A stretch of DNA of 47,542 nucleotides from Mesotoga sp. Brook.08.105.5.1 (GTDB lineage Bacteria > Thermotogota > Thermotogae > Petrotogales > Kosmotogaceae): positions 1 to 47,542 of the forward strand of contig NZ_AYTW01000059.1 of NCBI RefSeq assembly GCF_002752635.1, given 5' to 3'. Both the position numbers and the translations under genes were made by a program. The notes under the pieces were generated by a model that made no database searches, was not told the DNA's origin, and saw only the letters and a program-made list of their open reading frames with translations. This document shows, piece by piece, positions 3,701-47,542 of the stretch. Within the stretch, counting starts at the first letter, position 1. Every line of letters begins with the position of its first letter.

Positions 3701-6700
3701 ATGAAAAGGGCAATCGGATTTGTCGCCATTGGTTTACTGGTTCTGGTAATTGCGGGATGTTTCTCACTAGATCAGAAAGCAGTTAATTCTGAAGAGGTTT
3801 CCTTCATTCTGAATGATGACGGCTCAATATCCATTAAGGCGCTGAAGGAGCTTACGGGGATAGATGTGATAGTAGCAGCCTCTATTGAAGAAGAAGCTAT
3901 AACAGTTGACGATTCCCTCCTGAAGATAGTAACCCATAGCGATGAAGGCACAACGAGAATAGCAATAGTCTCGACTTCAGCAAACATAAGGGAAGGGGAA
4001 GAGATAGCCAGAATAGACGGTAATTTCACTACCTTGAAGAACCTGGTGATATCTTCTTCTGCTAAATATCTTGAAATGCCTTCGCCAAAGACTCAGGCAA
4101 AGCCTCCGTTCCCGGATGGTATAAGCATAGTAGACGGAAGCATAGACAAAGCCTCTAATGGCTACTTTCTCGTTCACGCTGAAAATGTCAATGGATTTGC
4201 CGGAGTTGAGATCACCATAACTTACGATCCACAATACATAATCATTGACAAATCTAAGGGAGAACAAGGAGTAACTCCTCTAAACTCATTCGGAACGGGA
4301 CTACTAATAGTTCAACACACCGAAAACACGATTACGATAACCTCGGCCTTCAACTCGGCAAAGAGTGTCAATTGCGAATATATCTACCAGATACATTTCG
4401 TGGCCAGTCTCATAGAGGGAAAAACATTGATTGGACTATCGGGAGAGGTACGCGATGCAAACACCGGACTAATCCAAACAGTGTTTCATGATGGTGAGAT
4501 TACTATAGGTGGTCCCAAACTGATTGGTGACTTTGATAATAGCAACAAGGTGGATCTTCCAGACTTCATATTGTTTGCCAGAAGCTATGGAAGCGTACTT
4601 GGAGGAGAAGGCGAATATATTGAAACATACGATATTGCGCCTGCGGAGGACAAATACCAGGGAGTATGGGCGGGAATATACGACAGCTGTGCTCCGGATG
4701 GAGAGATAGACCTTGTTGACTTCATAATCTTTGCAAGAAACTATGGGAAGAATAAGCCAAACGAACCGCCCTTCATATCTGTGCCCGATCAGCAGGTTGC
4801 CCAAGGTGACACATTGGAACTGGATCTTCTAAACTATTCATCCGATCCCGAAGGGGACAGCCTGTTGTTCATACTTGAGGTTGATTCCCCGGGAACGATA
4901 ACCGATTCAATCTACTCATACACGCCGGATTTCGAAACACTTGGAAACCAGACAGTTGATATAGCGGTTGAAGATACAGCGGGAAATATGATGACAGACA
5001 CATTCATAATCGAAGTAACGAAAACTAACAGACCTCCCGTTACAGATGGAATACCTGATCAGACAATAGCGGAAGGAGAAACGCTTAACTTAGAACTGCT
5101 TGATTACTTCGAAGATCCTGACGGAGACAACCTTGTTTTCGCGGTAATTTCAGGCGTGGGTACGGTTATTGGCAGCGAATATACCTACAGTCCCAATTAC
5201 GATGCTGCCGGAACATACCAGGTAACGATAAAGGCAGCCGACGGAAATGGAGGAGAGGTTGAAACGACATTCACGCTGACTGTTGAGAACACTAACAGAC
5301 CTCCGGAAGAGCCGCAACTGGTATCTCCGGAAAACGCTGCCCTGTTAATCAATACAACTTCGGTAGAGCTCAGCTGGAATTGCAGCGATCCGGACGGCCA
5401 GCTTCTGACATATGATGTTTATTTCGGAGAAGACATAGAAGCGCTGGAAGTTATAGCTACACAATCAGCTACAAGTCTTCATGTTCAAGAAATAACTGCT
5501 GGAAAGACATACTTCTGGATGATAGTGGCCAGAGATCCTCACGGAGCTGAAACGGCAAGTGAAGTCTACTCTTTCAGCACAGACTATTATTTAATTCCTG
5601 GCGGAGAATTCGAAGGAATGATCTCCGGATATGCGCTCATGACTAAGGCCAACTCTCCATACATAATCACGGGAGACATCGTAGTTGAATCTGGAGCGCA
5701 GCTGATAATAGAACCGGGAGTTGAGGTTAGGTTCACCTACATATCCGATCCTGATAACAACGGACAGGAAGATACGAATGCAGCCGATCTTATAGTTTAT
5801 GGAAAGCTATTTGCAGAAGGAAGTGAAACTGAGCCTTTACTATTCACTTCAAACGAGACTCCGGCGCTTAAAGGCGACTGGGGAGGAATAAGGTTTGCCT
5901 CGAGTGAAGGAACATCTAAGATAAGCCACGCAACTATTGAAATGGCGAAAGATGGTGTCTGGACATCCAGCAACTGCAATATTGAAATCAGCAACTGTGA
6001 GATAAGAACGAACATTGATTACGGGGTGCGTCTAGGAAGCAACTCAAACGCAACTATAGTTAATAGCACGATACATCATAATGCCAATGGTGTCTGGACA
6101 TCCAGCAACTGCAATATTGAAATCAGCAACTGTGAGATAAGAACAAACATTGATTATGGAGTGCTTCTAGGAAGCAACTCAAACGCAACTATAGTTGATA
6201 GTACAATACATCTTAATGCCACAGGAATATCTAACTATGGAACAATGATAATCCGAGGCTGCACTATATCTTCAAGTGGAGGAACGGGAATCTATAGTAA
6301 TGGAGTCTACATTGAGATCTATGAGACTTTGATAGGAGAAAACTCTTCAACGGGAATCACTCTTCATAACTCAAGTTCAAACTCAAGAGTTCAAAATTGC
6401 CACTTCCTGGATAATGGTAGTTATGGCATAGAAGGATACAGATTTGAAGTAATAGATTCCTCTTTTGCTCGTAACGGCAACCATGCAATCAGTGGGTCGA
6501 ATTGCGTAGTAGAAGGATGTTTATTTACTGAAAGTATAAAGGGGATTCGTGGTTCATCCATAACTGCTGTTAATAATAACTTCGAAGGTGAATTCTGTTC
6601 TTCGTTCTATGATGACTACTCGGGAGTATACATAGACGGACAGGCTTTGATTTCACACAACGTGTTCTCAGGTTTCGCAACAGGGGTATGGTTAGCAACT

Positions 6701-8356
6701 TCGAGTGAAGTGACAATACAGGATAATCTTGTAACGGGAAACTACAGAGGTATCTGCTTTGCAAGTGTTGATGGCCAGAATTTGACTTGTTCAAACAACA
6801 ATATTTATGGTAATCGAGACTGGAATGTCTACAACGACACTAACCAGAGAGTGGCTATCACTAATTCTTTCTGGGGCACAGATAATGAAAGTACTATAAA
6901 GAGCAAGATATTCGATTATTATGAAGATTCTAGCAAGGGTCCAGTGAGCTATACAGGGTTCAAGTCCTCTCTTATTGATGGAGCAACCTCTTCCAAAAGA
7001 ATAGCTTTGATACCTTATGATAGGCAATCACTGGGGTTTGCCGATGAAGCCACAATAAGCTGGACCGCATACGATCCAGATGGGCTTTTGGAATCGTTCG
7101 ATCTGTATTTTGGCGAAACTGAGACTCCTGAGCTCTATACTGCAGATGTTATAAGTCCCGTGACAGTTCCCGTTGATCATGCAAAGACTTACTATCTTGG
7201 TGTTATGGGATTTGATTCTCAAGAGTCTCTTAAAGCAGAATCAACCGTTTCAGAAATATGCATCGGACTACCGATAGTCTTCGGAGGTAGTAGTAGTGAC
7301 AGTGGGCTTAGCGTTGTAGAGACATATGACGGCGGATTGGTCGTGACCGGTTATACAAATTCTTTCGGGAATGGAGATCAGGTGTATCTGTTGAAAACCG
7401 ATTCAAACGGAGACCTTCTCTGGGAGAAGAACTTTGGCGGTACAAGTGATGACTATGGACACAGCGTCGTCGAGACATCTGACGGCGGACTGGTTGTGAC
7501 TGGTAATACGGATTATTTTGGGAATAGTTATCAGGTGTATCTGTTGAAAACCGATTCAAACGGAGACCTTCTTTGGGAGAAGAACTTTGGCGGTACAAGT
7601 ATTGACTATGGACACAGCGTCGTCGAGACATCTGACGGCGGACTGGTTGTGACTGGTTATACAGAGTCTTTTGGAAATTGCTGGCAGGTATACCTGCTGA
7701 AAACCGATTCAACCGGCAACCTTCTCTGGGAGAAGAACTTTGGCGGTACAGGTGGTGATGTAGGATACAGCGTTGTCGAGACATCTGATGGTGGTCTGGT
7801 TGTGACTGGTTTTACGGATTGTTTTGGAAATGGCAATCAGGTGTATCTGTTGAAAACCGATTCAAACGGAGACCTTCTCTGGGAGAAGAACTTTGGCGGT
7901 ACAAGGAATGATTCTGGACACAGCGTCGTCGAGACATCTGACGGCGGACTTGTCGTGACCGGTGATACGTATTCTTTTGGAAATAGAAGTCAGGTGTATC
8001 TACTGAAAACCGATTCAAAAGGAAATATGCTATGGGAGAAAGGGCACGGTACTTCTAGAGGTAATTCTGGGAGCAGCGTTGTCGAGACATCTGACGGCGG
8101 ACTGGTTGTGACCGGGCATACGATTTCTTTCGAGAATAACAACCAGGTGTATTTGTTGAAGACAGATTCAACCGGCAACCTTCTCTGGGAGAAGAACTTT
8201 GGCGGTACAAGGGATGATTCTGGAGAAAGCGTCGTCGAGACATCTGACGGCGGACTGGTTGTGACTGGGTATATGACTTCTTTCGGGATTAGCACGCAGG
8301 TGTATATGATCTGGACTGATTCAGAAGGTAACGGTATAAGCGAACCCGGCTGGTGA
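3701..8356 (+). CDS. Giant lipoprotein: cohesin-like, dockerin-like, Ig/FN3-like, beta-helix and seven-bladed propeller
   Basis: ATG 3701 is preferred over the in-frame GTG at 3680 because GGGGGAGG (3686-3692) sits nine bases before it and the protein then starts with a clean lipoprotein signal (lipobox IAGC), giving 1551 residues. Domains in order: a cohesin-like beta-sandwich at about 125-270; a dockerin-like pair of calcium loops at about 272-352 (GDFDNSNKVDLPDF and a second loop with PDGEIDLVDF); two Ig/cadherin-like repeats at about 360-540, each starting with PP; FN3-like at about 540-630; a right-handed parallel beta-helix at about 630-1065, rich in N-S-x-I and containing an exact 45-residue duplication; a second FN3-like domain; and seven repeats of about 51 residues (SVVETSDGGLVVTG ... 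QVYLLKTDS.G.LLWEK) at about 1190-1551. No catalytic residues are recognisable. It is probably a cell-surface scaffold or carbohydrate-binding protein. Cohesin-like and dockerin-like modules in one chain could allow self-assembly (inference). Confidence 0.8.
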   Translation: MKRAIGFVAIGLLVLVIAGCFSLDQKAVNSEEVSFILNDDGSISIKALKELTGIDVIVAASIEEEAITVDDSLLKIVTHSDEGTTRIAIVSTSANIREGEEIARIDGNFTTLKNLVISSSAKYLEMPSPKTQAKPPFPDGISIVDGSIDKASNGYFLVHAENVNGFAGVEITITYDPQYIIIDKSKGEQGVTPLNSFGTGLLIVQHTENTITITSAFNSAKSVNCEYIYQIHFVASLIEGKTLIGLSGEVRDANTGLIQTVFHDGEITIGGPKLIGDFDNSNKVDLPDFILFARSYGSVLGGEGEYIETYDIAPAEDKYQGVWAGIYDSCAPDGEIDLVDFIIFARNYGKNKPNEPPFISVPDQQVAQGDTLELDLLNYSSDPEGDSLLFILEVDSPGTITDSIYSYTPDFETLGNQTVDIAVEDTAGNMMTDTFIIEVTKTNRPPVTDGIPDQTIAEGETLNLELLDYFEDPDGDNLVFAVISGVGTVIGSEYTYSPNYDAAGTYQVTIKAADGNGGEVETTFTLTVENTNRPPEEPQLVSPENAALLINTTSVELSWNCSDPDGQLLTYDVYFGEDIEALEVIATQSATSLHVQEITAGKTYFWMIVARDPHGAETASEVYSFSTDYYLIPGGEFEGMISGYALMTKANSPYIITGDIVVESGAQLIIEPGVEVRFTYISDPDNNGQEDTNAADLIVYGKLFAEGSETEPLLFTSNETPALKGDWGGIRFASSEGTSKISHATIEMAKDGVWTSSNCNIEISNCEIRTNIDYGVRLGSNSNATIVNSTIHHNANGVWTSSNCNIEISNCEIRTNIDYGVLLGSNSNATIVDSTIHLNATGISNYGTMIIRGCTISSSGGTGIYSNGVYIEIYETLIGENSSTGITLHNSSSNSRVQNCHFLDNGSYGIEGYRFEVIDSSFARNGNHAISGSNCVVEGCLFTESIKGIRGSSITAVNNNFEGEFCSSFYDDYSGVYIDGQALISHNVFSGFATGVWLATSSEVTIQDNLVTGNYRGICFASVDGQNLTCSNNNIYGNRDWNVYNDTNQRVAITNSFWGTDNESTIKSKIFDYYEDSSKGPVSYTGFKSSLIDGATSSKRIALIPYDRQSLGFADEATISWTAYDPDGLLESFDLYFGETETPELYTADVISPVTVPVDHAKTYYLGVMGFDSQESLKAESTVSEICIGLPIVFGGSSSDSGLSVVETYDGGLVVTGYTNSFGNGDQVYLLKTDSNGDLLWEKNFGGTSDDYGHSVVETSDGGLVVTGNTDYFGNSYQVYLLKTDSNGDLLWEKNFGGTSIDYGHSVVETSDGGLVVTGYTESFGNCWQVYLLKTDSTGNLLWEKNFGGTGGDVGYSVVETSDGGLVVTGFTDCFGNGNQVYLLKTDSNGDLLWEKNFGGTRNDSGHSVVETSDGGLVVTGDTYSFGNRSQVYLLKTDSKGNMLWEKGHGTSRGNSGSSVVETSDGGLVVTGHTISFENNNQVYLLKTDSTGNLLWEKNFGGTRDDSGESVVETSDGGLVVTGYMTSFGISTQVYMIWTDSEGNGISEPGW
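5954..6223 (+). repeat. Two tandem 135-nt units inside the beta-helix region
   Basis: The unit starting GGTGTCTGGACATCCAGC at 5954 recurs at 6089. Only a few base differences separate the copies, giving two nearly identical 45-residue stretches (VWTSSNCNIEISNCEI... and so on). The rest of the beta-helix is much more diverged, so this is a recent in-frame duplication of about two helix turns. Confidence 0.85.
7275..8345 (+). repeat. Seven 153-nt repeats encoding propeller blades
   Basis: Seven units, each about 153 nt, share long identical stretches such as GACGGCGGACTGGTTGTGAC and CTTCTCTGGGAGAAGAAC. They encode blades of about 51 residues. The first and last units are the most diverged (the seventh ends MIWTDSEGNGISEPGW), while the central units are close to identical at the DNA level. 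This points to recent amplification or gene conversion. Seven is the most common blade number for a closed beta-propeller. Confidence 0.85.
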
Positions 8357-15378: not shown

Positions 15379-15399
15379 GTTTCCATACCACTATGGTTC

Positions 15400-15665
15400 A
15401 TATAAGAGCCGTCCTCCGTTGACCGTCCAAGAGCATGGACCCGTCCTCCGATAAGATCAAAGACCAGATCCTGACCAAGAGCACGTCAGGATGACCAGTT
15501 GAGTTGGTTCATACAACCTAACGTCCTGCCCCTAGAAAGCTTCTCCCTCCTGGCGAAGCCAGCCATGCGTCCCCGGATGTTTCTCCGGGCATTGCGTCCG
15601 CCAATGGTTCTCGGCGCATCACTTCCCGGGATGATCTTCCCGGCACAGCGTCCTGCCGAAGGCAG
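15400..15665. repeat. CRISPR-embedded hairpin module, copy 1
   Basis: This is a 266-nt unit starting ATATAAGAGCCGTCCTCC and ending CCTGCCGAAGGCAG. Its right half is a chain of short GC-rich hairpins (CCTGGCGAAGCCAGC, CCCCGG...CCGGGC, CCGGGA...TCCCGG, CTGCCGAAGGCAG) joined by linkers containing TGCGTCC or GCGTCC. Read in the reverse direction these are the same hairpins found at 46.6 and 47.3 kb. Confidence 0.9.
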
Positions 15666-15820
15666 CGATTCATACCACTATGGTTCTCACGCAACGAGAA
15701 ATGCAGTTTACAGGTTTAAAGATGGGTTTTGGGTTTCCATACCACTATGGTTCTCACGCAACCATCTCAATGCAATTGACCTAGAAACACCTAAAGTAGG
15801 TTTCCATACCACTATGGTTC

Positions 15821-16086
15821 ATATAAGAGCCGTCCTCCGTTGACCGTCCAAGAGCAAGGACCCGTCCTCCGATAAGATCAAAAACCAGATCCTGACCAAG
15901 AGCACGTCAGGATGACCAGTGGAGTTGGTTCATACAACCTAACGTCCTGCCCCTAGAAAGGTTCTCCCTCCTGGCGAAGCCAGCCATGCGTCCCCGGATG
16001 TTTCTCCGGGCATTGCGTCCGCCGATGATCCTCGGCGCATCACTTCCCGGGATGATCTTCCCGGCACAGCGTCCTGCCGAAGGCAG
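15821..16086. repeat. CRISPR-embedded hairpin module, copy 2
   Basis: Same length (266 nt) and junctions as copy 1, with a handful of substitutions (for example AAGAGCAAGG, GAAAGGTTC, and GATGATCCTCGG in place of AATGGTTCTCGG). Copies are about 97-98% identical by eye. Confidence 0.9.
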
Positions 16087-16175
16087 CAATTCATACCACT
16101 ATGGTTCTCACGCAACTTAGTAAGACAGAGCGTAAAAGATACCGAAGAATTCATGTTTCCATACCACTATGGTTC

Positions 16176-16441
16176 ATATAAGAGCCGTCCTCCGTTGACC
16201 GTCCAAGAGCAAGGACCCGTCCTCCGATAAGATCAAAGACCAGATCCTGACCAAGAGCACGTCAGGATGACCAGTTGAGTTGGTTCATACAACCTAATGT
16301 CCTGCCCCTAGAAAGCTTCTCCCTCCTGGCGAAGCCAGCCATGCGTCCCCGGATGTTTCTCCGGGCATTGCGTCCGCCGATGGTTCTCGGCGCATCACTT
16401 CCCGGGATGATCTTCCCGGCACAGCGTCCTGCCAAAGGCAG
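16176..16441. repeat. CRISPR-embedded hairpin module, copy 3
   Basis: This is 266 nt with the same junctions. It differs from copy 1 at a few positions (CCTAATGTCC, CCGATGGTTC, CTGCCAAAGG). The last change breaks one base pair of the terminal CTGCCGAAGGCAG hairpin. Confidence 0.9.
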
Positions 16442-16660
16442 CGATTCATACCACTATGGTTCTCACTTAACCAGGATATTTACTACGGATATATATGATG
16501 CTATTGTTTCCATACCACTATGGTTCTCACGCAACAAGTGGCTCGCAGAGCGTACATGCGCCAATACTACAGGTTTCCATACCACTATGGTTCTCACGCA
16601 ACATGCATACAAGAGTTCTTGTGTGTATATACGTGCATAGTTTCCATACCACTATGGTTC

Positions 16661-16926
16661 ATATAAGAGCCGTCCTCCGTTGACCGTCCAAGAACAAGGA
16701 CCCGTCCTCCGATAAGATCAAAGACCAGATCCTGACCAAGAGCACGTCAGGATGACCAGTTGAGTTGGTTCATACAACCTAACGTCCTGCTCCTAGAAAG
16801 GTTCTCCCTCCTGGCGAAGCCAGCCATGCATCCCCGGATGTTTCTCCGGGCATTGCGTCCGCCAATGGTTCTCGGCGCATCACTTCCCGGGATGATCTTC
16901 CCGGCACAGCGTCCTGCCGAAGGCAG
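16661..16926. repeat. CRISPR-embedded hairpin module, copy 4
   Basis: This is 266 nt with the same junctions. Private changes include AAGAACAAGG, CCTGCTCCTAG and CCATGCATCC. It is the copy nearest the regular part of the array. Confidence 0.9.
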
Positions 16927-19900
16927 CGATTCATACCACTATGGTTCTCACGCAACCGCTCCGTACCGAAACCTTTAGCATCCTTAACGCGTGTTTCCAT
17001 ACCACTATGGTTCTCACGCAACTTGGCGCTGCGGTAGTATGAATTCCTGTAAGTACCAGGTTTCCATACCACTATGGTTCTCACGCAACTCGTGAAGGTC
17101 AGACCTTTCTTTGTCTGCAGTGTGTGTTTCCATACCACTATGGTTCTCACGCAACCAAACTCCGTCTAATTCCTTTTCTAACCACCCCGAGTTTCCATAC
17201 CACTATGGTTCTCACGCAACTCCTATCGCTCAGCTCACGCAGTCTTTCCCATGTAGTGTTTCCATACCACTATGGTTCTCACGCAACTCAAGTGCTTGGG
17301 AATACTGCTACTACTCTGGATTATGGTTTCCATACCACTATGGTTCTCACGCAACTCAATCATCTCTCATCCCATATAAACTTACTTGCATACGTTTCCA
17401 TACCACTATGGTTCTCACGCAACGAGCGATGACGACGATGACATAGTAAGTGTCTTCTGGAGTTTCCATACCACTATGGTTCTCACGCAACCAGAGTAAC
17501 CCCAATGAATATGCCCGCAGTATAATGGGTTTCCATACCACTATGGTTCTCACGCAACCACCGCGTGCGCTATCAACGTCACCAACAGACATATAGGTTT
17601 CCATACCACTATGGTTCTCACGCAACGTAGAAAATCCTCTGACGGCACTACCGTGGACGATAAGTTTCCATACCACTATGGTTCTCACGCAACGTGGAGA
17701 GATTGCCGTAATGCTTGCAAACTTGAGTGTTTCCATACCACTATGGTTCTCACGCAACCACGGCCTTAACCTTGGCTAACGGAACCAAAATTCGTTTCCA
17801 TACCACTATGGTTCTCACGCAACTCTACAAGGTGATGTGGTTTAAGTCCTATTCCATCAAGTTTCCATACCACTATGGTTCTCACGCAACACAGAACCTG
17901 ATGAAGTCACAGAAGACGAAGAATAAAGGTTTCCATACCACTATGGTTCTCACGCAACGGGTTGATGGTAGGGGACGTGTAAACGTCCCTCTCTAGTTTC
18001 CATACCACTATGGTTCTCACGCAACCCTTTGTGGTGAGCATTTGTGCTCTTTTGCCAAATCTCGTTTCCATACCACTATGGTTCTCACGCAACTCGACAT
18101 CGGCGATAATTGAAAACGGTGTAGAACGTTTCCATACCACTATGGTTCTCACGCAACAAGATGCAGCTTTGATGAACTGCCAGAGAGAGAATTGTTTCCA
18201 TACCACTATGGTTCTCACGCAACTCAGACAAGAAAGATGCAGAAGTGGATCGAAAATCACGTTTCCATACCACTATGGTTCTCACGCAACATGACTGTGT
18301 TCAGAGCTTGGCAGATGAAAAGGCGTTTCCATACCACTATGGTTCTCACGCAACGAATCAGAGGTTCTTTATGAAAGTTTGGTTCTCAACGTGTTTCCAT
18401 ACCACTATGGTTCTCACGCAACCATGGTTAGGGGGCTTTCAGTCTTTCATACACCAAGGGTTTCCATACCACTATGGTTCTCACGCAACACTCATTTGCT
18501 GTTGTAATTTTTAACAATCATTTCGGTTTCCATACCACTATGGTTCTCACGCAACGGGCCTAGGGAAGACAGTCCAGGCAATAGCAAGTATCCGTTTCCA
18601 TACCACTATGGTTCTCACGCAACCCCCATCGGCCCAACGGTTGTAACTCATCAAGTTTCGTTTCCATACCACTATGGTTCTCACGCAACGCTCCGTTTTC
18701 CTGTCTCTTCCACGATTCGATGTTACGTTTCCATACCACTATGGTTCTCACGCAACCCAGCCTCTTCTCGAGCTCATGCCTTTCGATAATTGAGTTTCCA
18801 TACCACTATGGTTCTCACGCAACGAACGTCCGCATTGGTGAGACACGTTCGGGACGGCCAAGTTTCCATACCACTATGGTTCTCACGCAACCAACATACT
18901 TGCCAGCCCATACATGACAGGCGACAACGGTTTCCATACCACTATGGTTCTCACGCAACAATGAACGGCAAGAAAGGCTACGTAATCAAGGATTTCAGTT
19001 TCCATACCACTATGGTTCTCACGCAACGATTCCGGGACGTACTTTATTCCGGCCCAGCAATCTGTTTCCATACCACTATGGTTCTCACGCAACGCAACAG
19101 GCACGGCGCAAGGATAATGTGGAGACTAGTTTCCATACCACTATGGTTCTCACGCAACGTGATATGTGGAAGCACCTAATAACAGAAGCATATAAGTTTC
19201 CATACCACTATGGTTCTCACGCAACAGTTGTGTTCCCAAAGTTTGCAGAGCGCAAAAGCCCGTTTCCATACCACTATGGTTCTCACGCAACAAAGAAATT
19301 TGACAAGGCGACCTTCAAAGCAGATAACGTTTCCATACCACTATGGTTCTCACGCAACGTGCTGAAACACTTGCCAGAGATCGCTGCGGTCGAAGGTTTC
19401 CATACCACTATGGTTCTCACGCAACCAGTCGTTCCTTGCAGCCCTAATCACAGCAGCTCAACTTGTTTCCATACCACTATGGTTCTCACGCAACTTAACG
19501 AGCCGCTTGAAGTTGTGTTCCCAAAGTTTGCGTTTCCATACCACTATGGTTCTCACGCAACGCTTGCATACTTGCGAAATGCAATCAAGGCCATAGAGGT
19601 TTCCATACCACTATGGTTCTCACGCAACGCAGAGAAACGGAACACCTGAAGGCTGGACGCTTTCGTTTCCATACCACTATGGTTCTCACGCAACTGAAAA
19701 TATGATCCATTATCTCGTATTCGCAGACACGTTTCCATACCACTATGGTTCTCACGCAACAGCCGGGAGGGCCGGTGGCGGTGAGCAATTCATTGTTGGT
19801 TTCCATACCACTATGGTTCTCACGCAACATCCGGATATAGAGGGAAGGTTTCGCAGCGACCTCATCGTTTCCATACCACTATGGTTCTCACGCAACAAGG

Positions 19901-20889
19901 ATAATGTGGAGACTACGACTAGATCCGGATATGTTTCCATACCACTATGGTTCTCACGCAACGTATCAAAGTTTCAGATGTTTCATGAGCTGAAGGTGTG
20001 TTTCCATACCACTATGGTTCTCACGCAACTCAATACGTGTAATCTATCCAATCAAACAATAAAAGTTTCCATACCACTATGGTTCTCACGCAACAAGAGG
20101 AATCGGGCAAGAAGAGTTTGATGCTTGGTGTTTCCATACCACTATGGTTCTCACGCAACTTGGAGGTGTCCAGCCTTTTTTCATGTAAAAAACCGTTTCC
20201 ATACCACTATGGTTCTCACGCAACGGTGCTATATGAGTTTTCCACAACCGCAAAGGATAACGTTTCCATACCACTATGGTTCTCACGCAACTTGGTTATC
20301 AAAAAGTAGCGAGTCAGACCAAGCATGTTTCCATACCACTATGGTTCTCACGCAACGAAATCCGGAGATGCCCTCAAAACTTGACAAAGCAAGGTTTCCA
20401 TACCACTATGGTTCTCACGCAACCAGAAGAAGATAAATCTTCTTCTCGTCAGAAATCTGAGTTTCCATACCACTATGGTTCTCACGCAACACACTGGTGA
20501 CGACATTGATGCGCCAGAAGAACTCCCGTTTCCATACCACTATGGTTCTCACGCAACCCTATGCCAGTTTTATTCCAACCCTTTGGTCGGCTGTTTCCAT
20601 ACCACTATGGTTCTCACGCAACCCAAAGCGATTCAGAGTCAGGTTGAAGAGAAGTTGAAGAGTTTCCATACCACTATGGTTCTCACGCAACAGACGAGTG
20701 GAAAGCGGTTTTAGGAAATAAGTGGCAGTTTCCATACCACTATGGTTCTCACGCAACAAGCGATTCAGAGTCAGGTTGAAGAGAAGTTGAAGAGTTTCCA
20801 TACCACTATGGTTCTCACGCAACGGTGAAAAAGCGAGCTTAAAGGGGGTATGAAAGTGTGTTTCCATACCACTATGGTTCTCACGCAAC
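16927..20889 (-). CRISPR. Main CRISPR array: 59 consecutive intact 30-nt repeats plus one degenerate repeat, 59 spacers
   Basis: After a degenerate repeat (16927-16956) there are 59 identical 30-nt repeats, from 16993 to the last at 20860-20889. On the plus strand each starts GTTTCCATACC and ends TCTCACGCAAC, with an internal CCATACCACTATGG near-palindrome. Spacers are 34-39 nt. The reverse complement ends ATGGAAAC, like the 5' handle of type I-B/III crRNAs, so the array is read leftward. Three things agree: degenerate repeats lie at the left, a promoter-like sequence lies just right of the last repeat, and the deduced PAM falls on the matching side. No cas gene is in the window, so the effector type is inferred from the repeat only. 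Overlapping and near-duplicate spacers are described in the findings. Confidence 0.97.
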
Positions 20890-21670
20890 CGCTTCTATTA
20901 CAAAGATATTATACAGGTTTTTAGGAGGTGGAATCAACTAAATGGTCAGCTCTTACAATAGCCGTAAACATTGCGTTTCGGAGATTTGTTCAGAGTTTAT
21001 TCGAGAAAGCCTCGTAGTTTTTCGAAGAAAGAACATGCCGGTATCTTCTAAGAAAGATCTATCATGGAAAATACCGGCGAGATACCCTTCGGCAAAAGCT
21101 CACAGAAGAAAACTGCTGTCAATTTCGCTTTCAATCACATGACCAATTGCTAGTCGAATCTATGTAAACTGTACAAGAATGATTCTAAATAGGTCTAGAA
21201 GTGTTATTAGAAAGTGAATTCAGCGGATAATGGTATACGATCGATCCGACGAGAATCAATTACCAAATTATTAACTCGGGAAAAGCTTTGTGGAAGCATA
21301 ACACAACTCGTTAAATAAAATAAGATAAGTATACTCCGCAATTTGGAGTTCAACAAAATCGGCGTCATGTAATGTGATCCGACAATAAGTATAACGAACT
21401 AAACTACAAAGCCCTCATTGGATAATACTTGTGGATGAGGGCTAATAATGTTAGTCGTTAGATGAAAAAGAGATTATTGAACCTGCAAGATTACAAAAAG
21501 CTTAAGGGGCGAACCAGGTTATTTTGCAGGGCTGCCAATGATTGATATTGAACAGAATTCTCTTGTGATGAATTACCTGGTGAAGCCAGAGATTCGGATT
21601 GACACGGTAGCACATTCTAAAAAGTACTCTTAGTCTTTCCTGCTTGGAAAGGAAAGAATATCTGCTTTAA
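20890..21670. other. CRISPR leader and intergenic region, about 780 nt, no supported gene
   Basis: The AT-rich sequence to the right of the array should contain the leader. Two hairpins stand out: GCCGGTAT (21037-21044) with ATACCGGC (21071-21078), and AGCCCTCAT (21410-21418) with ATGAGGGCT (21435-21443). The second has a T-rich stretch after it only on the minus strand, so it might end leftward transcription. A 66-codon plus-strand frame at 20942 has a good AGGAGGTG before it but looks non-coding and overlaps the leader promoter. Confidence 0.5.
20908..20937 (-). promoter_or_regulatory. CRISPR leader promoter
   Basis: On the minus strand, TTGATT (20932-20937) and a perfect TATAAT (20908-20913) are 18 bp apart. 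The -10 box ends 18 nt before the first repeat, so transcription would start just upstream of or at the first repeat and run leftward through the array. Confidence 0.7.
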
Positions 21671-21714
21671 TTAGAACAAACGGCAATGTGTTTATAAATT
21701 GCCAATTGTTCTAA
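21671..21714 (+). promoter_or_regulatory. Operator-like inverted repeat upstream of the AbiEi-like gene
   Basis: TTAGAACAAacGGCAAT (21671-21687) pairs with ATTGCCaaTTGTTCTAA (21698-21714): 15 of 17 positions match, around a 10-nt AT-rich centre that includes TTTATAA. It ends 7 nt before the TTG start of the antitoxin gene. AbiEi-type antitoxins are known to bind inverted repeats in their own promoters, so autoregulation is the likely purpose. Confidence 0.65.
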
Positions 21715-21721
21715 AAGTGAG

Positions 21722-22531
21722 TTGATCGATTTGAAAGACGAGACCTGGTCCTCAAAGCGTAGTGGTAAGAGAATAAGTTCAGAGCTTAAAGATAGGGACT
21801 CCTTCACTACTGAGGAGCTCAAGCCATTTCTTACTCTTCCCGGAGAAGAGATAAGCCCGGTTACTATCCGTACCAGACTGAATGCTCTGAAAAGGTGCGG
21901 AATCATAACCCACATTGGGCGTAGTCTGTACACTCTCAAAAAGCTGTACGATTATACTCCAGAGATAGACCAAACTCTTAGAAAAGTATATCTCGAGCTA
22001 AGGAAACGGCTGCCGCTAACGAGAATATGTGTATGGAGGCCTTTCTGGTTGAACGAGTTCGCACTTCATATAGCCTTTATGCAGACCATAGTTGTTGAAT
22101 CGGAAAGAGAAACTGAAAGGGCCGTCTTTGAAGTGCTTCAGGAATCGTTGGAGAAGAACTCCTCTCTTACCGGAACTCTGCTACTTCTAAATCCCTCTGC
22201 TGAAGACGTCGATCTGTATGTTTCAGGTCAGTCTCCCGCAATAGTTGTCGGAAGACTCATCACTGAAGCACCGGTAAGGGAGAGTGATGGAGTCATCGTA
22301 CCGAGGCTCGAAAAAATGCTTGTGGATTTATTCTCAGGGGGGCCCGTTCTTGAGCCTTTTGGTGGTGCCGAAATGGACAGAGTTTTCAGAAATGCCTTCA
22401 ATACATACGCTCTGAACGTAAATACCATCATAAGATATGCCACGAGGAGAGGTAAAAGACAGGAAATGGCTGACTACCTTACCTCAAAGAAGCTGACAGG
22501 TTACAGGGAAGTATTGGATGATCTCCGATAG
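21722..22531 (+). CDS. AbiEi-like antitoxin / DUF6577-type regulator of a type IV toxin-antitoxin pair
   Basis: The start is TTG 21722 (TTG 21731 is an alternative), and no strong ribosome binding site is visible. The product has 269 residues. Residues 10-75 look like a winged-helix DNA-binding domain (FTTEELKPFL...TIRTRLNALKRCGIITHIGRSLYTL). The C-terminal part matches the AbiEi/DUF6577 pattern: WLNEF..H......VVESERETERAVFEVL, PAIVVGRLITEAPVRE, VPRLEKMLVDLF, NTYALNVNTIIRYATRRGKRQEM. It overlaps the next gene by 14 nt (ATG within the 3' end), the usual abiEi-abiEii arrangement. In this family the antitoxin represses the operon and counters the nucleotidyltransferase without direct binding. 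Here it looks intact while the partner toxin is broken. Confidence 0.8.
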   Translation: MIDLKDETWSSKRSGKRISSELKDRDSFTTEELKPFLTLPGEEISPVTIRTRLNALKRCGIITHIGRSLYTLKKLYDYTPEIDQTLRKVYLELRKRLPLTRICVWRPFWLNEFALHIAFMQTIVVESERETERAVFEVLQESLEKNSSLTGTLLLLNPSAEDVDLYVSGQSPAIVVGRLITEAPVRESDGVIVPRLEKMLVDLFSGGPVLEPFGGAEMDRVFRNAFNTYALNVNTIIRYATRRGKRQEMADYLTSKKLTGYREVLDDLR

Positions 22532-23108
22532 TTGTTTGACCAGGGAGTATCTTGAGGCTAAACGAGTTAAGCTGGGTTGTGACCAGATACTGCTAGAAAA
22601 GACGATTAAGGGTCTTCAGCTTCTGGAGTTGCTGATAATCAACGGTGTGGATCTAACGTTCAAAGGAGGAACTTCCCTAATCCTGCTCTTGGATAGAATT
22701 CAGCGTTTATCCATTGATATAGATATCATTGTTGAGCCTGAAGCAGACTTCAGCACTGCTTTGGACAAAGTCATTTCGACCGGTAAGTTCTTTCGCTATG
22801 AAGAGGATATACGAAAGACTGTCTTTCCCGTGAGGCATTATAAGTTCTATTATGACTCGATCAATCCCAGTCAGTAGAACGCATATATTCTACTAGATGT
22901 CTTGTATGAGAGACCTATGCACACCGAGTTAATTTCGACACCAATCAGAAGCTCGATATTTCAGACTGAGGACCCGGTGACCAATGTAAGAACACCATCT
23001 ATAGATGCGATAATTGTGTTAAATAGGGTCAGACTCCATTTTCACACTAAACGAGAAATCGAAGATAATTCTGTGAGGATATTCCTAAGGATAGAAAAGA
23101 AAGGTTAA
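22518..23108 (+). pseudogene. Disrupted AbiEii-type nucleotidyltransferase toxin
   Basis: From ATG 22518 the frame encodes 119 residues with the AbiEii signature FKGGTSLILLLDR and SIDIDIIV (the G-G-S/T and D-x-D nucleotidyltransferase motifs). It stops at an in-frame TAG (22875-22877). The same frame then continues with family-like sequence (AYILLDVLYERP...TPIRSSIFQTED...TPSIDAI) to about 23016. After that it runs into unrelated sequence containing AATAGGGTCAGACTCC and ends at TAA 23108. Full-length relatives have about 270-300 residues, so the gene has both a premature stop and a missing C-terminus. Two lesions make a functional toxin unlikely, although the 119-residue product would keep the catalytic motifs. 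Confidence 0.8.
23022..23037 (+). repeat. Dispersed motif AATAGGGTCAGACTCC, copy 1
   Basis: The 16-nt motif is exactly repeated at 29700-29715. Motifs of this type are commonly found next to small REP-like or transposase-associated elements. Here it marks the point where the AbiEii reading frame loses its family similarity. Confidence 0.5.
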
Positions 23109-34128: not shown

Positions 34129-34148
34129 AGCCCTGCGACGCAAGGCTT
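34128..34148. terminator. Possible bidirectional hairpin between convergent genes
   Basis: AAGCC (34128-34132) and GGCTT (34144-34148), with inner complementary TGCG/CGCA, can fold between the PadR stop and the PLP-enzyme stop. The T-run after it on the plus strand is short, so its strength as a terminator is doubtful. Confidence 0.4.
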
Positions 34149-45673: not shown

Positions 45674-46513
45674 ATGAATGAAGTACTCAGTACAATTATC
45701 GAGTGGGCCATCAGAATAGGGATTAGCGTTGTAATCCTGCTGCTGGCAAAATGGCTGGCAGGTCTCTTCTACAAAACATTCATAAAATTCGCGGAGAAGA
45801 CAACCGTTGTCTCCACTCAGTATCGTAAGACCATGAGAACGCTTTTCAATCTGGCGTTCTATGCGCTGGCAGCCTTCATAATCATCTCGGTTCTCTTCAA
45901 GAATCTGGCTCCTATGCTTGCCGGACTCGGAGTATCAGGTATTATTGTGGGTCTCGCAGTCAAAGAGCCTCTAGACAATTTCATCTGTGGAATTCTTATA
46001 ATGATCAACAAGTTGGTTTACGAAGGGGAAGCCGTGGACATTGGCGGAACCTCAGGCGGGATTCAGGAAATAAAACTGAATCACGTACTCATCAAAACCT
46101 GGGACGGCAAGCTCGTAACTATACCGAGCAGAAACGTCTGGACCGCAACGATAATTCACTTCTGGCCCGAAAATATAAGAAGAAACGATCTCACGGTAGG
46201 CGTTTCGTATTCGAGCGATCTGAACAAAGTGATGAAGATACTCGAGGATTCTGTCAACTCTTATGAAAAGCTATATGTAGACGACAATCACAAACCCATG
46301 ATCCAGTTCACCGGGTATGGCGCGTCTTCGATCGACTTCGTCGTGAGGTTCTGGGTGGAGAGGCCTAACTTCGTCACCTCAAGCACAGAACTCGCGAAGA
46401 TCATAAAATCGAAATTCGATGAAAACGGAATAGAGATACCGTTCAGCCAGCTGGACCTGCATATTGTCGACAGCCCCAAAGAAGGCATAAGATTGGCCGG
46501 GAAGGAAAGCTGA
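45674..46513 (+). CDS. Small MscS-family mechanosensitive channel
   Basis: ATG 45674 follows AGGAGGG. The 279 residues are close to E. coli MscS in length: three membrane spans (about 10-30, 57-75, 78-95), pore helix APMLAGLGVSGIIVGLAVKEPLDNFICGILIMINKLVYEGEAVDI, beta domain GTSGGIQEIKLNHVLIKTWDGKLVTIPSRNVWTATI, and a C-terminal alpha/beta domain. It is the second MscS-type gene in the window and not closely similar to the one at 37049. It should act as a tension-gated safety valve. Confidence 0.9.
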   Translation: MNEVLSTIIEWAIRIGISVVILLLAKWLAGLFYKTFIKFAEKTTVVSTQYRKTMRTLFNLAFYALAAFIIISVLFKNLAPMLAGLGVSGIIVGLAVKEPLDNFICGILIMINKLVYEGEAVDIGGTSGGIQEIKLNHVLIKTWDGKLVTIPSRNVWTATIIHFWPENIRRNDLTVGVSYSSDLNKVMKILEDSVNSYEKLYVDDNHKPMIQFTGYGASSIDFVVRFWVERPNFVTSSTELAKIIKSKFDENGIEIPFSQLDLHIVDSPKEGIRLAGKES

Positions 46514-47542
46514 CCGAAGGGATCAGAGGGCAGAAACGTGGTCGGGGGTAGCAGGTTGGGGTAGGAAAGAGCGGAGTAAGACGCAAGGCGCCGGAATGCA
46601 TCGGCGGACGCAAGGCTGCCTTCGGCAGGAAGCGATCTGAAAGTTAGTCACCTTCGGTGGCCAGTTCCGCTTCGCGGGCTAGGAACCGCTGAACGCTGAC
46701 GAAGACAACGTTGTCCGTCAACGGTCCAGAGAGAGGCCGCTGAACGCTTAAAAGCGGAGAACCCGCTGAACGCTGTTTAGAGACGTCTTCGTTGAAATCA
46801 AACCCGAGAACCTTTTTCTTAGCATTTGCTCTTATAACTTGCAACATTGCACTTGCAACTGTTCGCGTTTTTCGCGTGGATCGAGATTCTGACCAGGACC
46901 TTCGTCAGAATGACGAAAAGCAAGAAAAGACTGTCATCCCCGTAGAACCTTCCCTTAAATCCACTTACCTGGTCATCCCGTGATGCACCTGCACGGGATC
47001 TGCTTTTTCTCCCTGTTCTTCGTAGTCTCGAATAGGGTTTCTCTCGAAGCGAAGCTTCATCTCAAACTCAAAGCGTCTTCTCGCTCAAAGATCCGCTGTA
47101 CGCTTAAGAGCAAGGACCCGCTGATCGCTCTAAAACATGGTTCGCCGTTGACCGTTCAAGATCATGAACCCGTTCACTGATAAGACCGTCGAGAAAGAGC
47201 ACTGTCGAGACGTTCGCTGCGCTCACGAGAAGGCGGGTGAAAAGTCAGTCACTGAAATTAGACGCAAGGCGCCGAAAGAACATCGGCGGACGCAAGGCTG
47301 GCTTCGCCAGGTCGCAATGCCCGGAGAAGCATCCGGGGACGCAAGGCTGCCTTCGGCAGGAGGCGATTTTGAAGCCTGTCTGTTCGCACAGACCAGTTTC
47401 TGCCTTGCGAGACCAATAAGAAGCATCGGAAAGAGCATTATCGAGAGTTCGCTGCGCTCACGAGAAGACGAGAACTCTCTCCTGTTTCTCGTCCTCTCGA
47501 TGCTCTTCTTTGAAACAAGTAGGGTCAAGAGATGGCGCGGTG
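46514..47542. repeat. Gene-free region filled with hairpin-and-linker repeats related to the CRISPR-embedded modules
   Basis: About 1 kb without a credible gene. Short hairpins (GCTGCCTTCGGCAGG, GCTGGCTTCGCCAGG, GCCCGGAGAAGCATCCGGGG, GCGCCG...CGGCG) are joined by linkers of the form ACGCAAG or CGCAAT. They occur at about 46590-46637 and 47262-47372. A second family (CCGTTGACCGTTCAAGA, AACCCGTTCACTGATAAGA, at 47150-47190) matches the left half of the CRISPR modules. A third (CCGCTGAACGCT) is repeated three times at 46685-46775. TTCGCTGCGCTCACGAGAAG occurs at 47213 and 47452. Confidence 0.75.

Follow-up and report, generated by a model that had tools for sequence, protein, structure and literature searches.

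BIMEs of enterobacteria are extragenic, shuffled mosaics of palindromic units and defined linkers; they alternate in orientation, and their palindromes are few and conserved. In the accessible text of the study by Di Nocera and colleagues (PMC3733652), REPs are split into GTAG and CGTC families, the carriers of the CGTC-3 type include Mesotoga prima and Kosmotoga olearia, and CGTC REPs have no dedicated transposase. The same text gives CGTC REPs an unpaired CGTC (or TGTC/CCTC) tag beside the stem, 8- to 9-bp stems with A-T at positions 1 and 2, loops of 4 to 5 nt, and CCA tails, and describes them as mostly head-to-head dimers, head-to-tail pairs being negligible. Mesotoga prima is also listed in the RepRanger survey (PMC12306157), in a row whose figures we take, by analogy with Table 2 of that survey, to be counts of 1,814 for REPs and 824 for terminators; its accessible part gives counts, without a unit, array or CRISPR insertion such as those described below. 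PMC4603820 reports, as far as its accessible sections go, only CRISPR and transposon counts. Across the portions of the literature on Mesotoga repeats, REP/CGTC families and CRISPR-repeat insertions that our search covered, neither the unit nor the CRISPR insertion is described.

The stretch of DNA analyzed here, referred to as the window, is contig C59:1-47542 (47,542 nucleotides) of a genome of 2,992,699 bases in 61 contigs. Right of an MscS-type gene (45674-46513) begins a mosaic of about 1 kb that holds two plus-strand arrays built from one linker-hairpin unit. The first (46580-46634), recognized by sequence reading, unit scan and linker matches, has two units; the second (47261-47365) has four, with stems CGCCG, CTGGC, CCCGG and CTGCC, and was recovered by unit scan, linker matches and a covariance model, R1, which matches at 47261-47294 and 47311-47343. 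The second array is enclosed in a longer mosaic segment (47127-47473, plus strand) whose best partial genomic copies elsewhere are 77 to 93% identical in sequence comparison. Palindrome scanning also located a CGTC-type REP with an AT-first stem, the class being that defined in the accessible text of PMC3733652, at 46885-46914 (minus strand) and a CGTC-like REP with a GGTC tag at 46972-47000 (plus strand). Between the first array and these palindromes, a second hairpin-linker family with GGCCAGT-type linkers and TTC hairpins occupies 46646-46682 (plus strand), as seen in the sequence and in a family count; this second family, also present in the L177 and L176 modules, shares some hairpin cores with the main one, and its GGCCAGTY motif was counted 44 times in stretches of this genome, 34 times in those of a second genome (G008) and 56 times in those of a third (G012). 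The units recur on the minus strand, within 15544-16928, in four modules inside a CRISPR array. Elsewhere in the window, at 5952-8305, in-frame tandem repeats with periods of 135 and 153 bp lie inside a 1558-aa ORF.

The motif GACGCAAKGC has 10 matches in the window versus 0.15 expected by chance, one of them (at 34137) without a surrounding array, and SGCTGSCTTCGSCAGG with up to 2 mismatches has 12 versus 0.11 expected. A genome-wide count of the kind proposed in the preliminary description gave 75 exact copies of GACGCAAGGCTG in this genome and 0 in the reversed control. Together with the excess of linkers and hairpins in the window, this count rules out chance or a simple repeat as the origin. 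We consider the units probably to be a REP/BIME-like family of extragenic DNA mosaic repeats of a new head-to-tail type, which would grow and shuffle at the DNA level and for which no transposase was identified.

Each unit consists of a 10-nt linker (GACGCAAGGC, GACGCAATGC, GTCGCAATGC or GAAGTGATGC) followed by a 5- to 6-bp hairpin. Surveyed over 267,499 bases, comprising the window and 20 repeat-bearing genome stretches, the linker pattern gave 332 matches, 263 of which were followed by a hairpin, compared with 106 and 39 in the reversed sequence. Individual linkers were found 102 (GACGCAAGGC), 65 (GAAGTGATGC), 36 (GACGCAATGC) and 28 (GTCGCAATGC) times in the same bases. Spacing was fixed: among 188 tandem unit pairs, 179 had start-to-start distances of 27 nt (74 pairs), 28 nt (51), 22 nt (42) or 23 nt (12), with other distances in the remaining 9. 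Hairpins fall into two classes: 5-bp stems closed by a TTC triloop, in some cases by a 4-nt loop, and 6-bp stems with loops of 6 to 7 nt.

Stems vary in sequence and keep their pairing, as the covariance analysis called for in the preliminary description revealed strongly in both unit sets that were aligned. In the 72 distinct long-loop units (set A1), 95.6% of 360 cells were paired versus 58.1% after shuffling and at most 57.5% when the partner side was slid; both sides had changed in 124 of the 360 cells, and the covariation score was 0.822 versus 0.181. The 18 triloop units (set A2) had 92.2% of cells paired versus 70.1% when shuffled, with covariation scores of 0.629 versus 0.231. A separate swap control agreed, with at least 4 pairs kept in 85 of 94 distinct cores versus a mean of 53.7. 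The first stem pair was C-G in 69 of the 72 A1 units. As a whole, the array at 47255-47370 was not unusual in its DNA fold relative to shuffles (z = -1.71).

Compared with the described systems, the family resembles BIMEs in that palindromic units and defined linkers form an extragenic, shuffled mosaic (39 orders in 49 arrays), but differs in its uniform orientation and in stems that vary with compensation. Like CGTC REPs (PMC3733652, accessible text), the units are short extragenic palindromes in many copies with no dedicated transposase. The GACG linkers, the largest linker class, read CGTC on the opposite strand, and the GAAGTG and GTCGC linkers carry no CGTC tag. The stems, however, are only 5 to 6 bp and begin with C-G, and the loops are mostly 3 or 6 to 7 nt. 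Arrangement differs as well: the units stand head to tail with no mixed-strand array among 68, whereas CGTC REPs are mostly head-to-head dimers according to the same accessible text. By stem, loop and dimer orientation, the units differ from the published CGTC-3 REPs of Mesotoga prima. CGTC-like palindromes occur in the same mosaics as separate elements (47 in stretches of this genome, 54 in those of G008 and 80 in those of G012), including the pair at 46885-46914 and 46972-47000 and one per CRISPR module.

Among 38 genomes of the order, R1 (E ≤ 0.001) detected the unit in 8, comprising 7 of the 10 genomes of the genus and a single genome outside it (G015, at least 3 units). Unit counts, which are lower bounds because 150 candidates were scored per genome, were at least 136 in this genome, 138 in G012, 103 in G008, 36 in G007, 29 in G011, 23 in G013 and 9 in G014; no units were detected at this threshold in G006, G009 and G010. 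We based the distribution on R1 because a blastn survey of the family partly counted the second hairpin family, to which the blastn matches in G009 (query 77-111) belong. The repeat family is real and of genus level.

Modularity is seen at several scales. The 253 units recognized form 68 arrays of up to 19 units, each head to tail in a single orientation; 16 of the 68 are single units, some within ORFs and probably due to chance. Apart from these, arrays sit mainly between long ORFs, with ORFs that overlie arrays assumed to be spurious, and they form long intergenic mosaics together with CGTC-type REPs, further short palindromes and the second linker-hairpin family. Tandem runs of at least two hairpins number 49 in this genome and show 39 different orders, and the corresponding figures were 13 orders in 19 runs in G008 and 26 orders in 34 runs in G012. 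Six gene pairs of this genome sought in G008 and G012 had the array absent, displaced or inverted. G008 and G012 are 99% identical to each other in some intergenic regions, and at one locus that they share (L172 in G008, L179 in G012) the flank and the first unit are identical and the remaining array differs; close copies of both swapped segments are found elsewhere in the same genomes. The locus directly supports an exchange of blocks, whether through ectopic recombination or through conversion. The preliminary description had proposed that the pieces behave like interchangeable blocks, and the 39 orders in 49 arrays, the swap, the covariation and the genome-wide copies bear this out. No unambiguous empty site was found outside CRISPR, and the CRISPR module is therefore the only case in which a whole array is shown to have inserted.

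In the same description, TTCG tetraloops had been taken to suggest that the units work as RNA. On such a reading, arrays would be transcribed and their UUCG-type hairpins would bind a protein, stabilize transcripts or terminate them. We judge this quite improbable. Strong stem covariation, the stable RNA folding of the hairpins, the shared direction of the units within any one array and the agreement of units in the CRISPR array with the putative crRNA direction are all consistent with it. However, in tested TTCG-bearing palindromes ViennaRNA folds an odd length into 5 bp and a 3-nt TTC loop, so these hairpins are not UUCG tetraloops. In 147 distinct cores (from stretches of this genome, G008, G012, G007 and G011), outer stem pairs included 16 GT/TG and 16 AC/CA mismatches, and this equality argues against an RNA role, since selection on RNA would favor G-U over A-C. 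The innermost pair was G-T in 15 cores and A-C in 7; once it is counted, totals become 31 versus 23, so a weak RNA constraint is still conceivable.

Other evidence also speaks against an RNA role. Relative to flanking genes, 62 arrays divided into four orientation classes of 18, 18, 16 and 10, which by these crude gene calls gives no orientation bias, and orthologous sites do not keep their arrays. The RNA fold of the array at 47255-47370 was ordinary (z = -1.20 versus shuffles). At the right end of the window, Rfam gave no match up to an E value of 1, a promoter search was negative, and terminator-like sites were about as frequent as after shuffling; across the window, the single Rfam match at gathering scores was a tRNA. 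A known RNA family was therefore rejected as the identity of the units. The preliminary description had also held its reading to be at odds with substitutions that ignore base pairing. The outcome is mixed. Across the family pairing is kept, but when orthologous arrays are compared between G008 and G012, the three substitutions seen in units are one loop change and two stem changes, each of the latter breaking a pair. An RNA function of the units is not supported, whereas their modularity is confirmed.

GTAG REPs that work with a RAYT (the REPtron) share with the units a hairpin and an unpaired conserved tag, and RAYTs occur in the genus. If the units were the REPs of such a system, a RAYT (Y1 transposase) would move the single-stranded linker and hairpin, now or before the gene was lost, and a conserved linker beside a variable paired stem would suit a structure-reading HUH enzyme. 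Y1_Tnp genes were found in 5 of the 10 genomes of the genus, and this genome has two intact RAYT-like ones, on contigs C19 (L053) and C32 (L049). A second Y1_Tnp type is present on its contig C16 (L025, 5526-6100) and on contig C26 of G011 (L193); the C16 copy is broken by stop codons and lies about 340 bp from a seven-unit array. We nevertheless regard a REPtron as unlikely, because in the stretches read the palindromes nearest to both Y1 types are of other kinds: many GGGACAGAC palindromes, likely a separate REP family, around the C19 gene, and GTAGGGGC REPs near the C16 and G011 genes. No unit linker lies within about 1.5 kb of the C32 gene, and the linkers contain no GTAG tag. The genomes also mismatch, since G008 has at least 103 unit matches and no Y1_Tnp match and G006 has two Y1_Tnp matches and 0 units by R1. 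A RAYT as the cognate enzyme is weakened accordingly, and no transposase tied to the units was found. Separately, a transposase-like gene of G008 (L172, 929-2640) that we take by eye to be IS110-like lies in a mosaic beside a unit array and is missing at the G012 counterpart.

Of all our results, the most surprising is that pieces of this mosaic have inserted into CRISPR repeats. The CRISPR array of the window (15379-20890; repeat GTTTCCATACCACTATGGTTCTCACGCAAC) counts 62 intact and 4 interrupted repeats; because of its ATGGAAAC end, we read the minus strand as the putative crRNA strand and place the modules at the old end of the array. A Pfam scan of 17 proteins, 16 of which are encoded in the window, revealed no cas gene, and the array may be an orphan. 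Beside it, at 20890-22877, genes of the DUF6577 and AbiEii types may form a toxin-antitoxin pair. Each interrupted repeat runs as far as CATACCACTATGGTTC, continues with 271 nt, and then gives CATACCACTATGGTTC again and the remaining repeat, so that the insertion point within the repeat is constant and 16 nt of the repeat are duplicated. Junction parsing placed the four 271-nt modules, each a hairpin array with a CGTC-like REP, at 15400-15670, 15821-16091, 16176-16446 and 16661-16931 on the minus strand. As the preliminary description had stated, the modules contain particular hairpins joined by GACGCAA-type linkers: GCTGGCTTCGCCAGG is exact in all four, GCTGCCTTCGGCAGG is exact in three and has TTT in the remaining one, and GCCCGGAGAAACATCCGGGG is read in all four. 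Its observations that the same hairpins and linkers recur on the plus strand in different number and order (at 46580-46634 and 47261-47365), and that the two module halves are differently arranged, also held, module positions 42-82 corresponding to 47145-47185 in forward and 172-225 to 47310-47363 in reverse orientation.

The module junction was found in 5 of the 10 genomes of the genus, with 4 copies in this genome, 7 in G008, 3 in G012 and 1 each in G007 and G013. The four copies of the window are 97 to 99% identical to one another and 85 to 92% identical to those of G008. Twelve parsed modules out of 14 are 269 to 271 nt long; in G012, one module measures 210 nt and differs in its interior and at its right end, and one no longer has its far junction. 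A MITE or transposon would have constant ends and a target duplication. The module has the 16-nt duplication at a fixed site, and its ends are constant in most copies, the exceptions being one variant right end and two tandem copies with another left end. G008 also has tandem modules with just the 16 nt between them, and at two tandem places the 16 nt are followed by a different mosaic piece that begins with the second hairpin family. Beside a module, G008 and G012 have two spacers in common; because these adjoin modules that are 99% identical between the two genomes, this insertion predates their split. A phage source was dropped, as the module had no match in 50,697 phage records.

The module might be treated by the array as a giant spacer, cut from the precursor RNA and either placed by the CRISPR integrase or selected because the array still works. 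The 16-nt copy at almost all far-side junctions, the tandem G008 modules separated by exactly those 16 nt, the steady length, the recurrence in half of the genomes of the genus and the orthologous modules beside common spacers would fit such a role. The duplicated 16 nt contain the complete repeat hairpin, so both repeat halves could stay processable. However, 271 nt is much longer than usual spacers, 16 nt rather than the whole 30-nt repeat are duplicated, the far junction is lost in one G012 module, no cas gene was among the 17 proteins scanned, and homologous recombination could explain the multiplication; on balance we think it improbable. In a broader version, CRISPR arrays across the genus would carry the module as a passenger that targets one point of the repeat, recopies the hairpin so that the array can still be processed, and multiplies as a giant spacer in a safe harbor; this strikes us as somewhat less doubtful, though still unlikely. 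The junction tells the event, not the enzyme.

The reading that we prefer, an extragenic DNA mosaic, accommodates the arrays and the modules alike. The data show the number of copies, their regular spacing, covarying stems, the variety of unit orders, the turnover of arrays at orthologous sites and the block swap. Growth and shuffling, we infer, would take place in the DNA itself, through tandem duplication combined with ectopic recombination or gene conversion from one array to another. Hairpins in single-stranded DNA are probably sites of breakage or template switching, and such switching may keep the palindromes perfect; it is an established cause of perfect stems in other systems. In the CRISPR array, a mosaic piece would have entered a repeat, recopying on its far side 16 nt that include the complete repeat hairpin, and would then have multiplied inside the array. 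The family thus presents a REP-like repeat in the form of uniform head-to-tail hairpin arrays whose stems change sequence yet keep pairing. Two related genomes record an exchange of blocks, and in several species such repeats have entered the CRISPR repeat, always at the same point. These CRISPR insertions offer a testable case of the way in which short palindromes insert and arrays multiply, and of whether a CRISPR array tolerates large passengers.
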